A stretch of DNA of 64,000 bases from Campylobacteraceae bacterium (GTDB lineage: Bacteria; Campylobacterota; Campylobacteria; Campylobacterales; Arcobacteraceae), in the NCBI GenBank assembly GCA_013373175.1, contig JABXII010000005.1:62001-126000 (forward strand). Direction: 5' to 3'. Position 1 is the first letter of the stretch. Every line of letters begins with the position of its first letter. The notes beneath the pieces are model-generated. The model searched no databases. It was not told where the DNA came from and saw only the letters and a program-made list of their open reading frames with translations. The position numbers and the translations under genes were made by a program. This document shows, one piece after another, positions 262 through 37,296 of this stretch.

Positions 262-3195
262 ATGATCGGAGCATTATGGACAGGAATTTCAGGACTTGCG
301 TCTCATCAAGCGGCGCTTGATAATGAATCACATAATATCGCGAATGTTAATACAATAGGTTATAAATCTTCAAGAATCTCTTTTGCAGATCAAATGTATC
401 AAGATAGAATTGGTAAAGGTTCTAAAATACTTGATGCTGAGAAACTTTATGTACAGGGTAACTTAAAACTTACTGGAGTTGATTATGATATGGCTCTTAG
501 TGGAGATGGTTTTTTTACTGTAAAAAATACTACTTCTAGTGGTAGTGGAGAAAACTATTATACTCGTGCTGGTAACTTCAGAATGGGTGATAATGGTACA
601 CTTCAAGATGCTGCAGGAAATGAAGTTCAAGGATGGGCTATGAGAGCCATTGATCCAAATAAAGATGTAGTATCAACAGATCCAAATAATAAAACTTTCA
701 CTAGTGATTATAATAAACTTTTAACATCAAAAGTAATTAAGTATTCAGATTATATTGAGACAGTTACTGCAAAAGCAACTGATTATAATCAAAGTGCAAA
801 AGCAGACTCATCTACTATTTATGAAGGAGCAGGTGGAAAAAGTAAAGCAGCAAAAATTTCTGATGTAGAAACTTTAGTTGCAAATTATGCTTCATGGCTT
901 CAAAAACTTGCAGATAATCCTGATGGAGGAAGTGCAAGTTCTATTGCACAGATTTCTCAAGTAAACTTTAAGTCAGGTTCTGATGGACTTATCTCAAAAG
1001 AAGGGGATCAAGTATATGTATATATAGATGGGAAGAAAAAATCTCAAAACTATATCTCAACTTCAGCATCTCAAGACTTTATAGATAGTTTAAAAACGGG
1101 GAAAGCTTCAGTTACAGGTAATAATACATCAACAGTAACTTATTCTGTAGATAGCCCAACTAATAATACAAGATATGAAATTGAAATAAATGGAACAACT
1201 GTATATTATGAGAGTGATAATGATGCAACTACAGATGAAATTAGAAATGGACTTAAACTTGCAATAGAAGGAGAAAGTACACTTACAGGTTATACTGTAA
1301 ATATGCCTGCTGCACCTGATAAAACAATTACTATCTCTCATGCCGATCCAATAGAAGTTTCTGAAAGAACTTTTGATAGCATTGTTCCTCTTGATTTAGA
1401 TGTAGCTGCAAGTAGAGTTGCAACATATAGAGCCTTAGCTGATCAAATTTCAGAAATTCAAGGTCTTAGAGCTACTATGGTTAGTGAAAGGAACTCAACT
1501 ACTGGAAATAATGATGTTTTAGAAGATAGTGATAATTTTAATTTATCAACATCTAATCTTGATATGATGAAAGGGATTATTCAAATTAAATCTCTAATTC
1601 CAGGGGTAGCATTTGATATTTCTGAAGTAGGAGAAGTATCTGGTTCAAATACTGTAGCAGGTGATTTCCAAACTACAACTATAGCTTCTGCTGGTGAAGG
1701 TGTTGGAGCACTTGAAAGTGCAAGAGATGCTCTAGCAAGAGCAATTACAGGAAATCAAAGGGATGTATATACTACAGCTGATTTAAAATTAGATGTACCT
1801 AATATTAAAAATGATTTTACTTATTCAATTTCAATTTTTGATAAAGAACTAGATAAAATTATTCCTGTACCAAATGATAATGGAACACCTCCCCAGGCTA
1901 CAAATATTAGTATTGCAGATGTTGATAGTGTTCAAGATTTTGTAGATAAATTTAATGCACAAGCAGCTATGTCAACGCCTATATTATCTGATTATGTACA
2001 AGCAGTTAATATTAATGGGAATGTAGTTATTCAAACATTAGATGATAATTATGATGTAGAGTTTAGTGGGAATTTAAAAGGTGCAGTGCCATTCTATTTA
2101 GATCAAACTTCAGGAATTAGTAACTCTCATACAGCTCCTGCCGCAGTAACTTCTACTATTGATACAGCAACATTAACTTTCCCAGGTACATTTACATATA
2201 ATTATAGTGGGTCAAGTGGTTCTAATACTATTACTCTAACAGGAGTAACAGATATCAATGATTTAGCTACAAAATTACAAGCAGATCCAAATATTGATAC
2301 TGTTACAACTTCGGGAACAGATATAGCAATTACTTTTGCAGATAAAACAATGGATATAACTGCTTCATCATTAGACGATTCGGATGGTGGTACTGGAACT
2401 GTAAATGATGCGGGACTTCCTCTAACTCACACAGGTGGAACAACGTCTTCTGATATAAATACAACTACCTTAACATTCCCTACAACAGAAAATTTTGTAT
2501 TCTATTATGAGCAAGCAGATGGTACAAAAAGTAGTATTGATATTCCAGCTGGAACAGCAGATGGAACAGCAATGGCTGCCTTAATTCAAGCAGATTCAAA
2601 TATTGCAACAGCTAACTTTGCAGCAGGAACAATAACAGTAACTCCTACAAATCAGGATTATGCCTTTACTTCTACAACATTAATCTCTGATGCTGCAACA
2701 TCAATGTTACCTCTTGATAAAAATAATGATTATAGTGGTAGACAAGGTGCAGGTGCAGAGTTTATTGAGTTAGTTAATACAATTGACCAAACAACAACTC
2801 AAAGTTCACTTCAGCTTAAACTTGATACTCTAGGTATCTCTGATTCAGCTTTTGGAGAATTTTCAGTAGATAGTACGGGACTTATTACAATGAAACAAGA
2901 TGGTGCAGAGTTTGCAATTGGTCAAGTTTCAATCGCACTGTTTAACAATACAAGAGGTTTAAATCCAAGTGGAGATAACCTTTTAGCTAAAACTAATGAG
3001 TCTGGTGAACCAATCTATAACTTAAATAATGATAAAACTGCTAAAATTGAAGGTAAAACTTTAGAGCTTTCAACAGCAGACTTATCTGAAAGTTTAGTTA
3101 ATCTAATGGTATTCCAAAGAGCATTCGAAGCAAATGCTAAATCGATTACTACATCAGATCAATTACTAAACACATTAATCAATCTAAAAAGATAA
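262..3195 (+). CDS. flgE: Large FlgE-like flagellar hook protein (second hook paralogue)
   Basis: This 977-residue axial protein of the flagellum is predicted to be exported by the flagellar type III system. The N-terminus (residues 1-35, with ALWTGISGLASHQAALDNES and then NIANVNTIGYK) is the rod/hook N-terminal signature. The FlaE-type region follows near residues 70-110 (MALSGDGFFTV, YTRAGNF). The last 45 residues are the hook C-terminal domain (LVNLMVFQRAFEAN). At 977 residues it is longer than most FlgE proteins; the extra length is a surface-exposed Thr/Ser/Asp-rich middle that contains two related segments, at about residues 630-705 and 729-807. There is a good AAAGGA ribosome site before the ATG. 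Family membership is clear; whether it or the upstream copy is the main hook subunit cannot be told from sequence. Confidence 0.88.
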   Translation: MIGALWTGISGLASHQAALDNESHNIANVNTIGYKSSRISFADQMYQDRIGKGSKILDAEKLYVQGNLKLTGVDYDMALSGDGFFTVKNTTSSGSGENYYTRAGNFRMGDNGTLQDAAGNEVQGWAMRAIDPNKDVVSTDPNNKTFTSDYNKLLTSKVIKYSDYIETVTAKATDYNQSAKADSSTIYEGAGGKSKAAKISDVETLVANYASWLQKLADNPDGGSASSIAQISQVNFKSGSDGLISKEGDQVYVYIDGKKKSQNYISTSASQDFIDSLKTGKASVTGNNTSTVTYSVDSPTNNTRYEIEINGTTVYYESDNDATTDEIRNGLKLAIEGESTLTGYTVNMPAAPDKTITISHADPIEVSERTFDSIVPLDLDVAASRVATYRALADQISEIQGLRATMVSERNSTTGNNDVLEDSDNFNLSTSNLDMMKGIIQIKSLIPGVAFDISEVGEVSGSNTVAGDFQTTTIASAGEGVGALESARDALARAITGNQRDVYTTADLKLDVPNIKNDFTYSISIFDKELDKIIPVPNDNGTPPQATNISIADVDSVQDFVDKFNAQAAMSTPILSDYVQAVNINGNVVIQTLDDNYDVEFSGNLKGAVPFYLDQTSGISNSHTAPAAVTSTIDTATLTFPGTFTYNYSGSSGSNTITLTGVTDINDLATKLQADPNIDTVTTSGTDIAITFADKTMDITASSLDDSDGGTGTVNDAGLPLTHTGGTTSSDINTTTLTFPTTENFVFYYEQADGTKSSIDIPAGTADGTAMAALIQADSNIATANFAAGTITVTPTNQDYAFTSTTLISDAATSMLPLDKNNDYSGRQGAGAEFIELVNTIDQTTTQSSLQLKLDTLGISDSAFGEFSVDSTGLITMKQDGAEFAIGQVSIALFNNTRGLNPSGDNLLAKTNESGEPIYNLNNDKTAKIEGKTLELSTADLSESLVNLMVFQRAFEANAKSITTSDQLLNTLINLKR

Positions 3196-28986: not shown

Positions 28987-29010
28987 TTTAAAGTAAATAA
29001 AGGATAGGTG

Positions 29011-29550
29011 ATGGAGAAGAATAAGAAAATTGTAGTTTATGGGTCAATTTTAAGTTTTCTAATTGCTTCAGCTCTTTTTGTTTACACAGTTTATGCGTCA
29101 AATATGTTGTCATATTTGTCAAGTGATCCAAAAGCCTGTATTAATTGTCATACAATGAATTCTGCGTATGCAACATGGGAAAAAAGTTCACATAAGAATG
29201 TAGCAGGATGTGTTGACTGCCATTTACCTGTAGGAGATTTTGTTGCAAAATACAAGTCTAAAGCTATAGATGGATGGAATCACTCTGTTGCATTCACTCT
29301 TAACACTTATGAGAATAATATTCACATAAGTGATGATGGGGCAAGCCGTGTGCAAGCAAACTGTATTAGATGTCATGCAAGTGAAAGTGCAACACTTAAA
29401 ATGAACGCTGACAAATATCACAGTGAAGAGGTTGGAAGTCTTGAAAATGGTCGTAAATGTTGGGAGTGTCACAAATATGTGCCACATGGGAAAGTTAGAA
29501 GTTTAACATCAACTCCATATAATCTTGGTGTTAAAGTAAAAGAAAAGTAG
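29011..29550 (+). CDS. nrfH: Cytochrome c nitrite reductase small subunit NrfH
   Basis: This 179-residue tetrahaem quinol dehydrogenase of the NapC/NirT family passes electrons from menaquinol to NrfA. One N-terminal membrane helix (about 10-30) is followed by four CX2CH motifs: CINCH (43-47, followed by TM), CVDCH, CIRCH and CWECH. I choose the ATG at 29011 rather than the GTG at 29008, because AGGA at 29001-29004 is then six bases away. nrfA follows after a short gap. The upstream FNR-type promoter fits respiratory regulation. Confidence 0.95.
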   Translation: MEKNKKIVVYGSILSFLIASALFVYTVYASNMLSYLSSDPKACINCHTMNSAYATWEKSSHKNVAGCVDCHLPVGDFVAKYKSKAIDGWNHSVAFTLNTYENNIHISDDGASRVQANCIRCHASESATLKMNADKYHSEEVGSLENGRKCWECHKYVPHGKVRSLTSTPYNLGVKVKEK

Positions 29551-29562
29551 AGGTTGGTTGTT

Positions 29563-31053
29563 ATGAAAAAATACAAAATATTGATGGCAGTAAGTGTAGT
29601 TGCAATTTGTCTAATGACTGCTCTTGTAGCTTCTATTAATGAGAAAAAAGAAGAACAAGTTAAACTAAATGAGGTTCCTAAAGTAGATAGATGGGAAACA
29701 AAAAACGAAGAGTTTAGAAAACATTATCCAAGACAGTTTGATTCTTGGAAACAAACTAAAAACTCTGATGAAATTCATGATATGTTAAAAGATTATCCTG
29801 AGTTAGTTGTATTATGGGCTGGTTATGGTTTTGCAAAAGATTATAATGCACCAAGAGGACACTTCTATGCAATAGAAGATAATAGAAATACATTAAGAAC
29901 TGGTGCTCCAGTTGATGAGAAAACAGGTCCTATGCCAACTGCATGTTGGACATGTAAATCTCCTGATGTTCCTAGAATTATGAATAAAGATGGCGATATG
30001 GAGTACTTTACTGGTAAATGGGCTAAATATGGTTCAGATATCATTAATCCAATTGGTTGTGTAGATTGCCATAATCCAGAAACTATGGAACTTCAAGTAA
30101 ATAGAAAATATTTAGATGAGGGGTTAAAAGCAGCAGGTGAAAAATCACTAGCCGAAGCAACTCAACAAGATATGAGATCTATGGTTTGTGCCCAATGTCA
30201 CGTAGAATATTACTTTGCTAAAACACCATTAGATAATGGTAAAAAAGCAGCAGTTGTAACTTTACCATGGGGTGAGGGTACACTTGTAGAAGAGATGGAA
30301 AAATATTATGACAATATGGAATTTAAAGACTGGACACATAAAATTTCTAAAACACCTATGTTAAAAGCACAACACCCAGGTTGGGAAATGTGGAAAACAG
30401 GTGCACATGGAAGAAACAATGTATCTTGTGCAGATTGTCATATGCCATATGTTCAAGAAGGTGGTATTAAATATACAAGTCATAATATTGGAAATCCATT
30501 AGAAAATATGGATAAATCTTGTATGAATTGTCACAGAGTAAGTGAGAAATCATTACTTGCTAATATCAATGCAAAAAGAGAAAGAAAAAATGAGCTTCAT
30601 AAAAAAGCTATGAAAGCTATTGCAGCAGCTCATTTAGAAGCAGGAAAAGCTTGGGAATTAGGTGCTACTAAAGAAGAAATGGCTCCTATCTTAAAAGATA
30701 TTAGACATGCTCAATGGAGATGGGACTATGCAGTTGCTTCTCACCCAGCATTCTTCCATGCACCAGAAGAGACTCTAAGAGTTCTTGGTACTGCATTAGG
30801 AAAAGCAGGTGATGCAAGAATTAAATTAGCTAAAGTATTAGCTAAATATGGTGCAGCTGATTATAAAGCTCCTGAGATTAAAGACAAAAAACAAGCTCAA
30901 GAGATTATTGGATTACCTTTTGAAAAATTAATTGATGAAAAAATAAAATTTAGAAATGGGTTAATGCAAGAATGGAAAAAAGAAGCTGAGAAAAAGGGTA
31001 TTTATAATCCTGAATCAACTAAAGGTATAGAAGATAAAACTTCTTATAATTAA
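29563..31053 (+). CDS. nrfA: Ammonia-forming cytochrome c nitrite reductase NrfA
   Basis: NrfA is the periplasmic pentahaem enzyme reducing nitrite to ammonium. With the ATG at 29563 (AGAGG nine bases upstream) it has 496 residues. A signal sequence or membrane anchor lies in residues 1-25. The active-site haem motif is CWTCK (residues 128-132), with lysine as haem ligand, followed by four CX2CH sites: CVDCH, CAQCH, CADCH and CMNCH. Family residues near the active site and calcium site are visible in KAQHPGWEMW. A distal histidine lies in VASHPAFFHAPEE. The CX2CK motif normally needs a dedicated haem ligase, and a candidate lies downstream. Confidence 0.97.
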   Translation: MKKYKILMAVSVVAICLMTALVASINEKKEEQVKLNEVPKVDRWETKNEEFRKHYPRQFDSWKQTKNSDEIHDMLKDYPELVVLWAGYGFAKDYNAPRGHFYAIEDNRNTLRTGAPVDEKTGPMPTACWTCKSPDVPRIMNKDGDMEYFTGKWAKYGSDIINPIGCVDCHNPETMELQVNRKYLDEGLKAAGEKSLAEATQQDMRSMVCAQCHVEYYFAKTPLDNGKKAAVVTLPWGEGTLVEEMEKYYDNMEFKDWTHKISKTPMLKAQHPGWEMWKTGAHGRNNVSCADCHMPYVQEGGIKYTSHNIGNPLENMDKSCMNCHRVSEKSLLANINAKRERKNELHKKAMKAIAAAHLEAGKAWELGATKEEMAPILKDIRHAQWRWDYAVASHPAFFHAPEETLRVLGTALGKAGDARIKLAKVLAKYGAADYKAPEIKDKKQAQEIIGLPFEKLIDEKIKFRNGLMQEWKKEAEKKGIYNPESTKGIEDKTSYN

Positions 31054-31059
31054 AACATA

Positions 31060-31089
31060 AAATAAAGAGAACTTTTGTTCTCTTTATTT
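31060..31089 (+). terminator. Bidirectional terminator after nrfA
   Basis: A perfect 13-bp stem (AAATAAAGAGAAC / GTTCTCTTTATTT) with a TTTT loop begins six bases after the nrfA stop. The T-rich right arm serves the + strand, and the A-rich left flank gives U-rich RNA on the - strand. It separates nrfHA from the downstream haem-ligase gene. Confidence 0.75.
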
Positions 31090-31125
31090 CTATTGGTACA
31101 TGTAAGTAACATCAATGGCTTTCAT
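31090..31125 (-). other. Possible 11-codon ORF with a strong ribosome site on the minus strand
   Basis: On the minus strand AAGGAG (31140-31135) lies nine bases before ATG at 31125, opening an 11-residue frame (MKAIDVTYMYQ, stop TAG). The frame stops against the nrfA terminator, which would also end a minus-strand transcript. The coding bases form one arm of the large inverted repeat here. It may be a leader or regulatory peptide, or chance. Confidence 0.2.
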
Positions 31126-31177
31126 TGCAACAATCTCCTTTCTTAATAAATCTTGATGTTACTTACATGTGCTAATA
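31091..31177 (+). repeat. 25-bp near-perfect inverted repeat in the leader of ccsBA
   Basis: Arms 31091-31115 and 31153-31177 match at 23 of 25 positions, with an 18-bp perfect inner part (ACATGTAAGTAACATCAA and its complement). The loop is 37 bases. Both mismatches are G-U pairs if the + strand is transcribed, so the + strand RNA can form a complete 25-bp helix. The loop carries CTCCTTTCT, which resembles the anti-Shine-Dalgarno end of 16S rRNA. It lies 23 bases ahead of the ccsBA start. Confidence 0.7.
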
Positions 31178-31199
31178 CAAAAAAACAAGGCAAATAATC

Positions 31200-34100
31200 A
31201 TGTTAAAAAAACTTAAAACTATATTCTCTATGCCAATTGTTATTGTTCTGTTGTTATTTTTTGCTTTTGTCTGTGCAATTGCTACATTTATTGAAAATGA
31301 TTTTGGTCCACAAGGAGCTAAATCTTTTATATATGGACAGACTTGGTTTGAACTTTTAATGCTTTTACTTACAGTTGCTGTAATAGTAAATATTTTTGTT
31401 TTTAAAATGTATAAAAAAGATAAATTCTTTTTATTTATGATTCATATTTCTTTAGTATTTATTTTTATAGGTTCTGCAATGACAAGATATATGGGTTATG
31501 AAGCAAATATAACTATATACGAAGGAAGAATGGAAAATAAAATGTACTCTAGTGATGAGTATATAAAAGTATATAAAGATGATGAATTAATATATGATAA
31601 AAAAGTTTTAATGACAAAATTATCACAAGATAGTTTTTCATATGATACAAATATAAAAGACAAAAATATAGAAATAAAGTTTAATAGATTTTTAGATAAT
31701 GCTGTTGAAACAATTGTTCCAAGCAAAAATGGAAAGCCAATAATTAATCTTATTGTAAAAGGTTTTAATGGTTCCAAAAGTATTGATTTAAGTGATAAAC
31801 AGACTAAATCAACTAAGTTTTTAGACTTCTCTTTAAATAGTGATAAAAAAACTAATAAAGCTTATGTTGATTTTGAAACAAATGAGAACAAGATTTTTTA
31901 TAGTTCAAACTTGGAAACAACTCTTTTTACAAAAGATTTTAAATCAACAAAAACAATAAAAGCAAATCAAAAAGAACAGTTACATTTAGATGTTATTTAT
32001 AAAGTAGGGCAAACACAGTTTATAATAAATGAGGCCTCATTAAAAGGTAAAGTAAAAACTGTACATGGAAGTAAAGAGATTCCAAAAAATAAAAGATTAT
32101 CTGCAGTTGTTTTAGACTTGTTAATTGATGGTAAAAAACAAGAGGTTTCACTATTTGGAAAAGCTGGATTCACGGGCTTTAAAAGAAGTATTAATATTGA
32201 AGGGCAAAAGCTAACTTTACAATGGGGAACAAAAGAGTTACAACTTCCTTTTTCTATTTTATTAAATGATTTTAGACTTCATAGATACCCAGGTTCTAAT
32301 GCTCCGTCTGCTTATGAAAGTGATATTAAAATCTATGACACAAAAAATAAAAATACATTAGAGTACACAATTTATATGAATAATACTTTAGATTACAATG
32401 GATATAGACTATTTCAATCTTCATACACAGAAAATGAAGATGGAACAATACTTTTAGTAAATAAAGACCCGGGGAAAGTTCCTACTTATATAGGCTACTT
32501 TTTACTTTTTACAGGACTTATATTAAGCCTTTTTGTAAAAAAAGGAAGACTTAAAAAACTAAGTTCAAAAAAATATGATGTGGAAAGTATAAAGAAAATA
32601 TATTATGCAAAAAAAGCAGTTATAAGCTTCCTTATTATTACATTTAGTATGTTCTTTATGCAAACAAATAGTTTTGCTAATCCTATTTTAGAAAAAAATC
32701 CTGAAGTTTTAAATATAAATAAAGCACATGCTTCAAAGTTTGCACAGCTTTTAGTTCAAGATTATCAAGGAAGAATAAAACCAATAAACTCTTTAGCAAT
32801 TGAGATTATAAATAAAACCACAAGAAAAAGTAGTGTTTACGGTTTAGATTCAAATCAGTTTTTCCTAAGTATGATGTTATATCCTAAAATTTGGCAAGAA
32901 GTAGATTTTATAAAAGTTAAAAGTGATAGATTAAAAAATATTGTTGGTGTTAAAAAAAGTGCAAAGACAATCTCTTTTAATGACATATATACAAAAGAGG
33001 GTTTTTATAAACTACAAGGTTATTTAGAAATAGCAAATAAGAAAAAAAGCTCTTTAAGAGATGAGTTTGATAAAGATTTAATAAAAGTAGATGAAAGACT
33101 AAATATTGCTTATACTGTTTTTACAGGTGACTTTTTAAGAGTATTTCCTAAAAAGGGTGATAAAAACAATAAATGGTTAAATACAAATGAAGCAGTAAAC
33201 TTGCTTATTTCAAAAGATTTTGAAAAAATAAAAGAGTTGATGCAAGAGTATTATCTAAAACTTGATTTAGCAACTAAAAATAAACTTTCTTGGGACAAAG
33301 TAGACTCTTCTTTACAAAATATAATAGATTATCAAAAAGAAAATGCCAATAAAAATGTTATTCCAAATGATTTAAAAATCAAAGCAGAACTACTTTTTAA
33401 TCAATACAATATCTTTGAAAACTTAACTCCTATATATTTACTTTTAGGTTTCTTTTTATTAGTTTTAATTTTTGTAAATATATTTAAAAGTGAAGTAAAG
33501 CTAGAAAGAAGTTCTAAAGTAGTTTTATCATTACTTGTGATAGCTTTTATTTTTCATACTCTTGCCATTGGCTTAAGATGGTATGTTGCAGGGCATGCTC
33601 CTTGGTCTAATGGTTATGAGTCAATGATTTATATTTCATGGGCAATAGTTTTAGCGGGTATTATCTTCTCAAAACAATCAGTGCTTGCTTTATCTACAAC
33701 AACAATTTTAAGTGGAATTACTCTTTTTGTAGCTCACCTTTCTTGGATGGAGCCACAAATTACAACTTTAGTTCCAGTACTTAAATCATACTGGCTAACT
33801 ATTCATGTAAGTGTTATTACTGCTAGTTACGGTTTCTTAGGACTTTCTTGTTTACTTGGGTTTTTATGTTTAATTCTTTTTGCCCTTGCAAATTCTAAAA
33901 AAGAGGATGATAAGTTTTTTAATATCTTAGTTAGTATTAAAGAGTCAAATAGAATAAATGAAATGTCTATTTTAATAGGTCTTGTACTTCTTGTTATTGG
34001 AAACTTCCTTGGTGGAATTTGGGCAAATGAATCTTGGGGAAGATATTGGGGATGGGATCCAAAAGAGACTTGGACTTTAGTATCTATTGTTATTTATGCA

Positions 34101-34337
34101 ATTATCATTCACTTAAAATATATAAAAGATGTTTTATCAGATTTTGTATTTGCAGTACTTACCACAATCTCTTATGCTTCAATTATTATGACATATTTTG
34201 GAGTAAACTACTATCTTTCAGGAAAACACTCTTATGCAGCAGGTGACCCTGTTCCTATTCCTACTTTTGTACCAGTTACTTTAGTAGTGATTATTATCTT
34301 AGTATTATTAGCATATAGAAATAGAAAAATTATCTAA
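31200..34337 (+). CDS. nrfI: Cytochrome c haem ligase CcsBA, probable NrfI
   Basis: This 1045-residue fusion combines ResB/CcsB (about 1-470) and CcsA/CcsC (about 480-1045), the single-protein System II cytochrome c synthetase of Campylobacterota. The N-terminal membrane helices are followed by a large periplasmic domain with beta-rich segments. The haem-handling WWD motif WGRYWGWDPKETW is at about 942-954, with flanking histidines in GHAPWSNGYESMI and LTIHVSVITASYGF and a histidine after the WWD motif in GKHSYAAGDP. In Wolinella the nrfHAIJ operon encodes NrfI, a CcsBA homologue needed for the CX2CK haem of NrfA. The position after nrfA suggests the same role, though a terminator intervenes. 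Confidence 0.85.
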   Translation: MLKKLKTIFSMPIVIVLLLFFAFVCAIATFIENDFGPQGAKSFIYGQTWFELLMLLLTVAVIVNIFVFKMYKKDKFFLFMIHISLVFIFIGSAMTRYMGYEANITIYEGRMENKMYSSDEYIKVYKDDELIYDKKVLMTKLSQDSFSYDTNIKDKNIEIKFNRFLDNAVETIVPSKNGKPIINLIVKGFNGSKSIDLSDKQTKSTKFLDFSLNSDKKTNKAYVDFETNENKIFYSSNLETTLFTKDFKSTKTIKANQKEQLHLDVIYKVGQTQFIINEASLKGKVKTVHGSKEIPKNKRLSAVVLDLLIDGKKQEVSLFGKAGFTGFKRSINIEGQKLTLQWGTKELQLPFSILLNDFRLHRYPGSNAPSAYESDIKIYDTKNKNTLEYTIYMNNTLDYNGYRLFQSSYTENEDGTILLVNKDPGKVPTYIGYFLLFTGLILSLFVKKGRLKKLSSKKYDVESIKKIYYAKKAVISFLIITFSMFFMQTNSFANPILEKNPEVLNINKAHASKFAQLLVQDYQGRIKPINSLAIEIINKTTRKSSVYGLDSNQFFLSMMLYPKIWQEVDFIKVKSDRLKNIVGVKKSAKTISFNDIYTKEGFYKLQGYLEIANKKKSSLRDEFDKDLIKVDERLNIAYTVFTGDFLRVFPKKGDKNNKWLNTNEAVNLLISKDFEKIKELMQEYYLKLDLATKNKLSWDKVDSSLQNIIDYQKENANKNVIPNDLKIKAELLFNQYNIFENLTPIYLLLGFFLLVLIFVNIFKSEVKLERSSKVVLSLLVIAFIFHTLAIGLRWYVAGHAPWSNGYESMIYISWAIVLAGIIFSKQSVLALSTTTILSGITLFVAHLSWMEPQITTLVPVLKSYWLTIHVSVITASYGFLGLSCLLGFLCLILFALANSKKEDDKFFNILVSIKESNRINEMSILIGLVLLVIGNFLGGIWANESWGRYWGWDPKETWTLVSIVIYAIIIHLKYIKDVLSDFVFAVLTTISYASIIMTYFGVNYYLSGKHSYAAGDPVPIPTFVPVTLVVIIILVLLAYRNRKII

Positions 34338-35064: not shown

Positions 35065-37296
35065 ATGTCAAAGCTCAAAGAAGTTAACTTTTGGCTTGTT
35101 TATGCAGTTGTTAGTGTATTGATTCTATCAGCTGCAATTTTTATTTTTTATTATGAATGGATTATAAATAAAAACAAGTATGCTCAAAACCTAACAAATT
35201 TTAATAAGATTAGCGTACAAAGCACAATCTCTTCTTTTAGAAGTAAAGAATCTACTTTAAAAATATTAGGAGAAAATCTCCTTGAATTGGATACTTTAAA
35301 TAATCCAGAAAATGGAAGAAAACTAATAAATGACATGAAAAGAGTAAATAAAGGCATAGTTGCCTTTGGTTTAGCAAAATATGATGGTCAACTAATTCTT
35401 ATCTCTACAATTGATAACTTAACTAACTTACCTAATTTAATGGACAATACACTAACAAGTAAAAGTTTTGCAATAGCTAGGGATAGTGAGCAAATGAATT
35501 TAGGAAGAACTTATTATGTGGAAAAGCTTGGTAAGTGGGTTATTCCAATTAGAATGGGAATTCAAGATGATAAAGGAAAAACTCCTTTAGTTATGACTGC
35601 TGGTATTGAGGTGGATGGAAATAATAGTGTTCTAAGTATAAAAGAATTACCTAGTGATTTAACAATTCAACTTATCAGAAATGATGGTTTTATTCAATTT
35701 CAAATGCCAATAAAAACTACATTGGAAGAGACGTACTCAAAAGAGTATGATTTTAATAAATTTAAGCAAATAGATGCAATAAGAGAGTTTTCTCCTAAGG
35801 TTATAACTGTTAACTCAAATGGTAAAAAGTGTATGTTGTCTGTTATTTACATTGATGAATATGAGTTATACTCATTAGTATCGATTCCTTATTCTGTAAT
35901 TACAAAAGATTTCAATAAAAAACTTGTCATTGCCTTGGTATTAATATTTATTCTTCTTGGAATTTTATATTTTTTATTTAGTTATAGTATTAAAATACAA
36001 AACCGTACTAGAAATGAACTAAAATATATTGCTAATCATGATACTTTAACGGGAGTTTATAATAGATATTCTTTAAATCAAGAGATTTCAAAAAGAATGG
36101 AAGAAGGAAAAAACTTCTATGTATTCTTTTTAGACCTAGACAACTTCAAATATATAAATGATACTTATGGACACTTAGTTGGAGATAAACTTTTAAAAGA
36201 AGTGGCAAAGAGGTTAAAGACAAGATTGTTTAAAAGAGATTTTATTTCTAGAAATGCAGGTGATGAATTTATTGTTTTAATTGATGAAAGAAGTGAGGAA
36301 ACTGTAAGAACAATTGCAAAGAAAATCTTAGATATTTTTACAAATAATTTTAAAATTGGAGATATTGAATTATTTACAGGGGTTAGTATTGGTATTTCTA
36401 GATATAACAAAAGTAAAACAACTACATCAGAACTTTTAAATCAAGCCGATATGGCATTATATAAAGCAAAAGAGAATAAGAACTCTTATGTGATTTTTTC
36501 AAAAGCAATTTATGGAAATACAAAAGAGATTGTACAAATAGAAACACAACTTAGACAAGCAATAAAAAATGATGAGTTCTCTTTAGTTTATCAACCTAAA
36601 ATTAATTCAAAAACCCATGAAATAATTGGAGTAGAAGCTCTACTTAGATGGAATAACAAAAAACTAGGTTTTGTATCCCCTGAAAAATTTATCAAAGTAG
36701 CAGAGAAAAGTGGAATAATAAATGAAATAGGAGAGTTTGTAATAAGAAAAGCCCAAGATGATATCTTTGATGTATGGGAAAAAACTTCAAAAGAGTTTAC
36801 TCTTTCAGTAAATGTTTCCCCTAGACAATTAGTATCAATAAAAGAGATGAATAGATTTAAAAAAGTGATTTTAAATAGCGATTTTCCAAATGATAAATTT
36901 ATGATTGAAATAACTGAAAATATCTTTGTGGGAGATGTAAAAAGAATTATTCTATTCTTAAATACAATAAAATCATATAATGTAAGTATCTCTTTGGATG
37001 ATTTTGGTACAGGCTATTCTTCTTTAAGTATCTTAAGTAAACTTCCTATTTCAGAACTTAAAATTGATAAGTCTTTTATTCATAATATGTTCTTAAATGA
37101 TGAAAATATGAAGCTTGTAAAATCTATAGTAAATATTGGGAAAGATATAAATTTAAAAGTTGTAGCAGAAGGTGTTGAAGAACAAAAAGAGTTAGAACTT
37201 TTAGAGAGTTTTGGATGTGATATTTATCAAGGTTATTATTTTAGTAAACCACTTTCAAAAGAAGAACTAATTAACTTTGTAAAGCGTAAAATATAA
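35065..37296 (+). CDS. Membrane sensor with GGDEF and EAL domains
   Basis: This 743-residue c-di-GMP enzyme has a membrane helix at 11-31 and a periplasmic sensor part (about 35-290) that looks like a Cache-type domain (FGLAKYDGQLILIST, GRTYYVEKLGKWVIPIRMGI). A second membrane helix lies at about 292-312. The GGDEF domain (about 320-480) has NAGDEF as the active motif and lacks the RxxD inhibitory site. The EAL domain (about 490-743) has EALLRW, SVNVSPRQL, ITENIF, DDFGTGYSS, LKIDKSFI and VVAEGVEE, so phosphodiesterase residues are intact. It may act mainly as a phosphodiesterase. It is divergent from bioD. Confidence 0.9.
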   Translation: MSKLKEVNFWLVYAVVSVLILSAAIFIFYYEWIINKNKYAQNLTNFNKISVQSTISSFRSKESTLKILGENLLELDTLNNPENGRKLINDMKRVNKGIVAFGLAKYDGQLILISTIDNLTNLPNLMDNTLTSKSFAIARDSEQMNLGRTYYVEKLGKWVIPIRMGIQDDKGKTPLVMTAGIEVDGNNSVLSIKELPSDLTIQLIRNDGFIQFQMPIKTTLEETYSKEYDFNKFKQIDAIREFSPKVITVNSNGKKCMLSVIYIDEYELYSLVSIPYSVITKDFNKKLVIALVLIFILLGILYFLFSYSIKIQNRTRNELKYIANHDTLTGVYNRYSLNQEISKRMEEGKNFYVFFLDLDNFKYINDTYGHLVGDKLLKEVAKRLKTRLFKRDFISRNAGDEFIVLIDERSEETVRTIAKKILDIFTNNFKIGDIELFTGVSIGISRYNKSKTTTSELLNQADMALYKAKENKNSYVIFSKAIYGNTKEIVQIETQLRQAIKNDEFSLVYQPKINSKTHEIIGVEALLRWNNKKLGFVSPEKFIKVAEKSGIINEIGEFVIRKAQDDIFDVWEKTSKEFTLSVNVSPRQLVSIKEMNRFKKVILNSDFPNDKFMIEITENIFVGDVKRIILFLNTIKSYNVSISLDDFGTGYSSLSILSKLPISELKIDKSFIHNMFLNDENMKLVKSIVNIGKDINLKVVAEGVEEQKELELLESFGCDIYQGYYFSKPLSKEELINFVKRKI

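Follow-up and report, generated by a model that had tools for sequence, protein, structure and literature searches.

A conserved long-stem RNA hairpin between nrfA and nrfI, a candidate processing site of the nrf operon

Introduction

Why should an inverted repeat with two fully pairing 25-base arms be kept between two genes of an operon for nitrate reduction to ammonium? The repeat lies near the middle of the window (the whole 64,000-nucleotide stretch of DNA analysed here, to which positions given without a genome label refer). The initial annotation, made from the letters of this region, offered three answers: a regulatory RNA, a leader hairpin of the downstream ccsBA-type gene, or a short minus-strand transcript encoding a peptide.

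Results and Discussion

The hairpin and its genomic setting

The repeat occupies the gap between nrfA (29554-31053, + strand), encoding an ammonia-forming cytochrome c nitrite reductase (NCBIfam NF008339, 699 bits against a cut-off of 595), and a gene for a CcsBA-type haem lyase (31200-34337, + strand; TIGR03144, 179.7 bits, just under the cut-off of 187.6). Upstream of nrfA lies nrfH (29008-29550), named by NCBIfam. In gene order and fusion the downstream CcsB-like gene agrees with NrfI of the nrfHAIJ operon (PMC12285233), and it is here called nrfI as a predicted assignment. The excerpted text of that report gives the same nrfH-nrfA-nrfI genes, in the same order, for the Wolinella succinogenes nrfHAIJ operon, but mentions no hairpin for it.

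The intergenic gap holds two hairpins. Directly 3' of nrfA is a terminator-like hairpin, hp1 (about 31060-31089, + strand), with a 13-bp stem and a purine-rich 5' arm, and it is followed by the hairpin under study, hp2. Defined on the + strand by pairing and covariation, the arms of hp2 are TATTGGTACATGTAAGTAACATCAA on the 5' side (31091-31115) and TTGATGTTACTTACATGTGCTAATA on the 3' side (31153-31177), and they enclose a 37-nt loop (31116-31152, + strand) with the pyrimidine stretch UCUCCUUUCU, which is anti-Shine-Dalgarno-like. Both the pairing over 25 bases in the + RNA, with two G-U pairs and zero mismatches, and the extent of the loop agree with the initial annotation. The region 31070-31200 folds with a minimum free energy of -35.8 kcal/mol, compared with -13.6 for shuffled sequences (z -7.9; 0 of 200 shuffles), and hp2 outscored every other long-stem hairpin (loop 8-45) across the 864 kb that were scanned, namely the window and 400 kb each from this genome and one relative. 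This genome holds one copy of the sequence, and the idea of a dispersed repeat fails on this count. The earlier statement that no known family explains the element stands as well, with 0 Rfam matches above the gathering score in the window and only chance-level matches in relatives.

Conservation and covariation of the stem

Searching at the nucleotide level gave related copies in three genomes of the genus, and every one of them lies between nrfA and nrfI. Further junctions were gathered via a NrfA search, and nine further genomes carry long hairpins with different arms at this place, examples being ATAAGTAACACC, AATAAATAACACCTA, AAATGGCATCT and AAACAGCACC. A matching hairpin with altered arms is found at the same position in 12 further genomes of the family, judged from gene content to be the Arcobacteraceae (covariance-model E-values of ~5e-9 or better). 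Strong covariance-model matches lie at nrfA-nrfI in 13 genomes, this one included, and exclusively there in 12 of the 13; G066 is the sole genome with strong extra matches. Covarying arms in relatives, which had been proposed as a check, are plainly present: in an alignment of 14, both sides have changed at 14 of 20 stem pairs (55 cells), and 96% of stem cells are paired in the true register, compared with 35-46% in controls with slid partners. The observed covariation was reached by 0 of 500 shuffles.

The distribution has edges. In G064 and G060 the junction has a looser hairpin, which the covariance model does not report, and hp2 is missing from the nrfA-nrfI junctions of G036 and of six genus g2 genomes. 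Weak covariance-model matches elsewhere in four contexts (G068, G078, G005 and G010), inspected by eye, were set aside as chance, and two unrelated matches to a strict arm pattern among public genomes were treated likewise. At nrfA-nrfI junctions of other families in the order, a first hairpin with a long one after it is a common arrangement, with arms that are unrelated and loops that lack CUCC; at many of these junctions the second hairpin has the 5' arm TATGNTATACTAAA, an extended -10-like sequence that is partly U-G paired with GTGTGT of the 3' arm.

Long perfect palindromes can be corrected arm to arm, and four related copies exist in G066, as would suit either a repeat that is mobile or dispersed or a neutral palindrome whose perfection such correction maintains. 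Against this stand the single copy here, the confinement of strong matches to nrfA-nrfI in all but one of the 13 genomes, the occurrence of different arms at the same place in many species, and the presence of wobbles that have been retained rather than corrected; we regard this origin as highly improbable. A function at the DNA level, with the arms serving as paired transcription-factor sites or containing a nrfI promoter, also appears unlikely. The 5' arm in one family of the order, TATGNTATACT, is extended -10-like, and between genera the inner arm AAGTAACAC shows fair conservation. However, DNA sites require neither the changes on both sides of the stem pairs nor a bias towards G-U on one strand, the gap of this genome (G000) has no -10 candidate, and copies of the element after napB in G066 have other neighbours.

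Strand and transcription

Scored with symmetric mismatches, the stems of the family representatives contain 15 G-U and 3 A-C wobbles on the + strand, and those of the other families of the order 22 and 4, giving 37 against 7 overall, although some are shared among related genomes and independent events are fewer; manual collapse of the shared wobbles within the family leaves about 12 G-U and 1 A-C. The + RNA also folds more stably than the minus RNA in 14 of 16 genomes. The preference for G-U over A-C on the + strand therefore argues for selection on an RNA in the nrf direction. The two G-U pairs had initially been taken as a hint of selection for RNA structure, and arm covariation and the + strand wobbles both back that view. 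Taken with the folding and the covariation, hp2 is very probably a real, conserved structured RNA element.

The opposite strand offers a different product, an RNA that would end at hp1 and present an AGGA/Shine-Dalgarno loop, either as a decoy (e.g., for CsrA) or as the message for a short peptide. The ribosome site and 11-codon frame described initially do exist (31090-31125, - strand, read from 31125 to 31090; AAAGGAG followed by MKAIDVTYMYQ*), and the frame ends, as had been noted, at a terminator, hp1 being terminator-like for the minus strand with a U tail on that strand in G056 only. The minus loop reads AAGGA or TAGGA in most genomes, often with ATG, GTG or TTG a few bases on (read by eye). 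The peptide, however, survives in the three closest genomes only (MKAIDVTYMYQ, MKVIDVTYMYQ and MKVIDVTYKYQ), decaying to MKEI* in G056 and to ATG-TGA in G067, and TATAGT, a minus-strand -10 candidate that lies within nrfI codons in G000, is missing from G056 (read by eye). With the lower stability of the minus RNA in most genomes and the G-U bias in favour of the + strand, the proposed peptide transcript did not hold up; the mini-ORF is judged from these comparisons to be a by-product of the stem, and a functional minus-strand RNA of either kind is improbable.

No TANNNT -10 candidate was seen by eye on the + strand between hp1 and hp2 in G000, nor was a + strand promoter-like match found in this interval. 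Because of this, and because the minus candidate is lost in G056, the RNA is most simply explained by read-through from nrfHA. Such read-through may be low, since hp1 resembles a terminator in several species.

Additional copies in G066

The extra matches in G066 indicate which neighbour the element follows. This genome has a second nrfA, with no nrfI after it, that carries hp2, and two tandem copies of hp2 lie 3' of napB, past its terminator-like hairpin (G066:C4, about 36860-37020; each with loop UUUCUCCUU); the name napB is based on the gene's place following napA and on a match that falls short of the curated cut-off. On account of these copies, hp2 appears to follow the 3' side of nitrate and nitrite reductase genes rather than nrfI. 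The initial suggestion of a ccsBA leader hairpin or regulatory RNA thus fares unevenly: hp2 does lie upstream of the ccsBA-type nrfI and may yet act as such, but the element is tied to the 3' ends of nrfA and napB.

A proposed processing and protection hairpin

We propose, with a probability of about 0.5, that hp2 is an operon-internal duplex hairpin, an RNase III-type site, that separates the nrfHA mRNA from nrfI and stabilises it. Transcription of nrfHA would read past hp1, and the read-through RNA would form the very stable hp2, of about 20-25 bp, ahead of nrfI. Cutting or blocking of an RNase III type at hp2 may then leave nrfHA on an mRNA whose 3' end is protected and nrfI on a separate message that is less stable or less translated, and the abundant reductase and the little-needed haem lyase could in this way be made in unequal amounts. 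The proposal builds on the observed structure, covariation-based conservation, strand and position after nrf and nap genes, and its RNase III component comes from analogy with long stems between operon genes and with processing in Escherichia coli. A duplex of ~20 bp or longer between same-strand genes, as looked for in RNase III sites, is present in the 25-bp hp2 between nrfA and nrfI.

In PMC5371410, the E. coli rplJL-rpoBC transcript (Barry et al. 1980, cited therein) and the secE-nusG transcript (references therein) are given as processed, and RNase III sites that set the stoichiometry of operon genes are discussed. Like these hairpins, hp2 is a long stem between genes that are presumably cotranscribed and whose products would be needed in unequal amounts. 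It differs in that cleavage at hp2 is a proposal, a terminator-like hairpin precedes it, and its pyrimidine loop is conserved in one family. Other top-scoring long hairpins of this genome lie at nusG-rplK and rplL-rpoB, again between genes of the same operon needed in different amounts. The former (G000:C32:835-893) has arms of about TTTAGGCATTAGGCAA/TTGCCTAATGCCTAAA and a loop with GCUUCYUU, was seen in 28 of the 29 family genomes examined, with no more than a chance-level Rfam match; the latter (27 bp, G000:C32:3327-3388) lies at a position that in E. coli is a known attenuation/processing region.

Several observations run against a processing site. The copies after the second nrfA and napB of G066 occur without nrfI, the six g2 genomes and G036 manage nrfA-nrfI without hp2, and the terminator-like hp1 may leave little read-through to process. 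A pure cutting site would, in addition, leave the conserved pyrimidine loop unexplained.

The pyrimidine loop and possible targets

The UCCU of the loop on the + RNA is, by its letters, an anti-Shine-Dalgarno sequence. It is found in the loops of 8 of 11 lineages, a count that 18 of 20,000 shuffles preserving composition reach, and the loops of the 11 collapsed lineages are only 3% G. The 9-mer CTCCTTTCT at 31135-31143 has one match in the window and is unremarkable on its own, as 0.84 matches are expected by chance, and a search of the assembly with the 16S-end pattern gave no match. The pyrimidine loop probably has a second, lineage-specific function in pairing with Shine-Dalgarno sequences.

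This loop is the centre of the main alternative, which we consider possible but the less probable explanation: a small RNA similar to RepG and CJnc190, made from the 3' region of nrfA or napB or from its own promoter, whose C/U-rich anti-Shine-Dalgarno loop on a long stem would block translation of targets during nitrate/nitrite respiration. The motif UCUCCUU/UCUUCCUU in the loops of 8 of 11 lineages and the scarcity of G are consistent with it, as are the G066 copies, tandem after napB and single after the second nrfA, which recall the arrangement of sibling small RNAs. RepG and CJnc190 use their C/U-rich loops to bind ribosome sites or G-repeats in leaders, and RNase III matures CJnc190 (PMC8687705); the sibling RNAs NmsR use UC-rich anti-Shine-Dalgarno regions (PMC5362039); and a search of this genome found no Hfq. 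Set against these points, neither a dedicated promoter nor a 3' terminator was recognised on the + strand, and the loops of other families are without the motif. A genome-wide search for complementary targets at up to 3 mismatches returned the locus itself only.

Among 53 start sites in the window of G000, that of nrfA ranked first for pairing with the loop (-19.4 kcal/mol). It was rejected as a specific target because the shuffle z was only -2.6, 45 of 6394 window stretches pair equally well, and cis pairing of the loop with the nrfH, nrfA and nrfI starts was no better in species-matched than in mismatched pairs; across species, changes in the loop are not matched by changes in the nrfA start region, which likewise speaks against the small RNA. 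The wider notion of an Hfq-independent family of small RNAs made beside nrfA and napB, whose C/U loop would block Shine-Dalgarno sequences and so couple nitrate/nitrite respiration to the translation of other genes, is more doubtful still.

Relation to known RNAs and significance

RepG of Helicobacter pylori and CJnc190 of Campylobacter jejuni (PMC8687705) share with hp2 a stable stem and a C/U-rich loop fit for ribosome sites, in bacteria that lack Hfq. In contrast to these RNAs, with their defined transcripts and targets, hp2 is a structure predicted from sequence, and it follows the terminators of nrfA and napB. NmsRA and NmsRB of Neisseria (PMC5362039) have a UC-rich anti-Shine-Dalgarno region, tandem copies like those after napB in G066, and a link to metabolism, but they consist of three stem-loops, have their own promoters and belong to a different phylum.

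The reading of hp2 as an RNA is strengthened by the comparisons made here. As a structured RNA that is well supported and matches nothing in Rfam, located in an operon for nitrate reduction to ammonium, it provides a concrete site for testing unequal production of NrfA and its dedicated haem lyase NrfI, and it bears on the possible use of anti-Shine-Dalgarno loops next to respiratory genes in bacteria that have no Hfq. Elsewhere in the window, at 179-229, a 24-bp near-palindrome with a 3-nt loop lies just upstream of an open reading frame at 262-3195.
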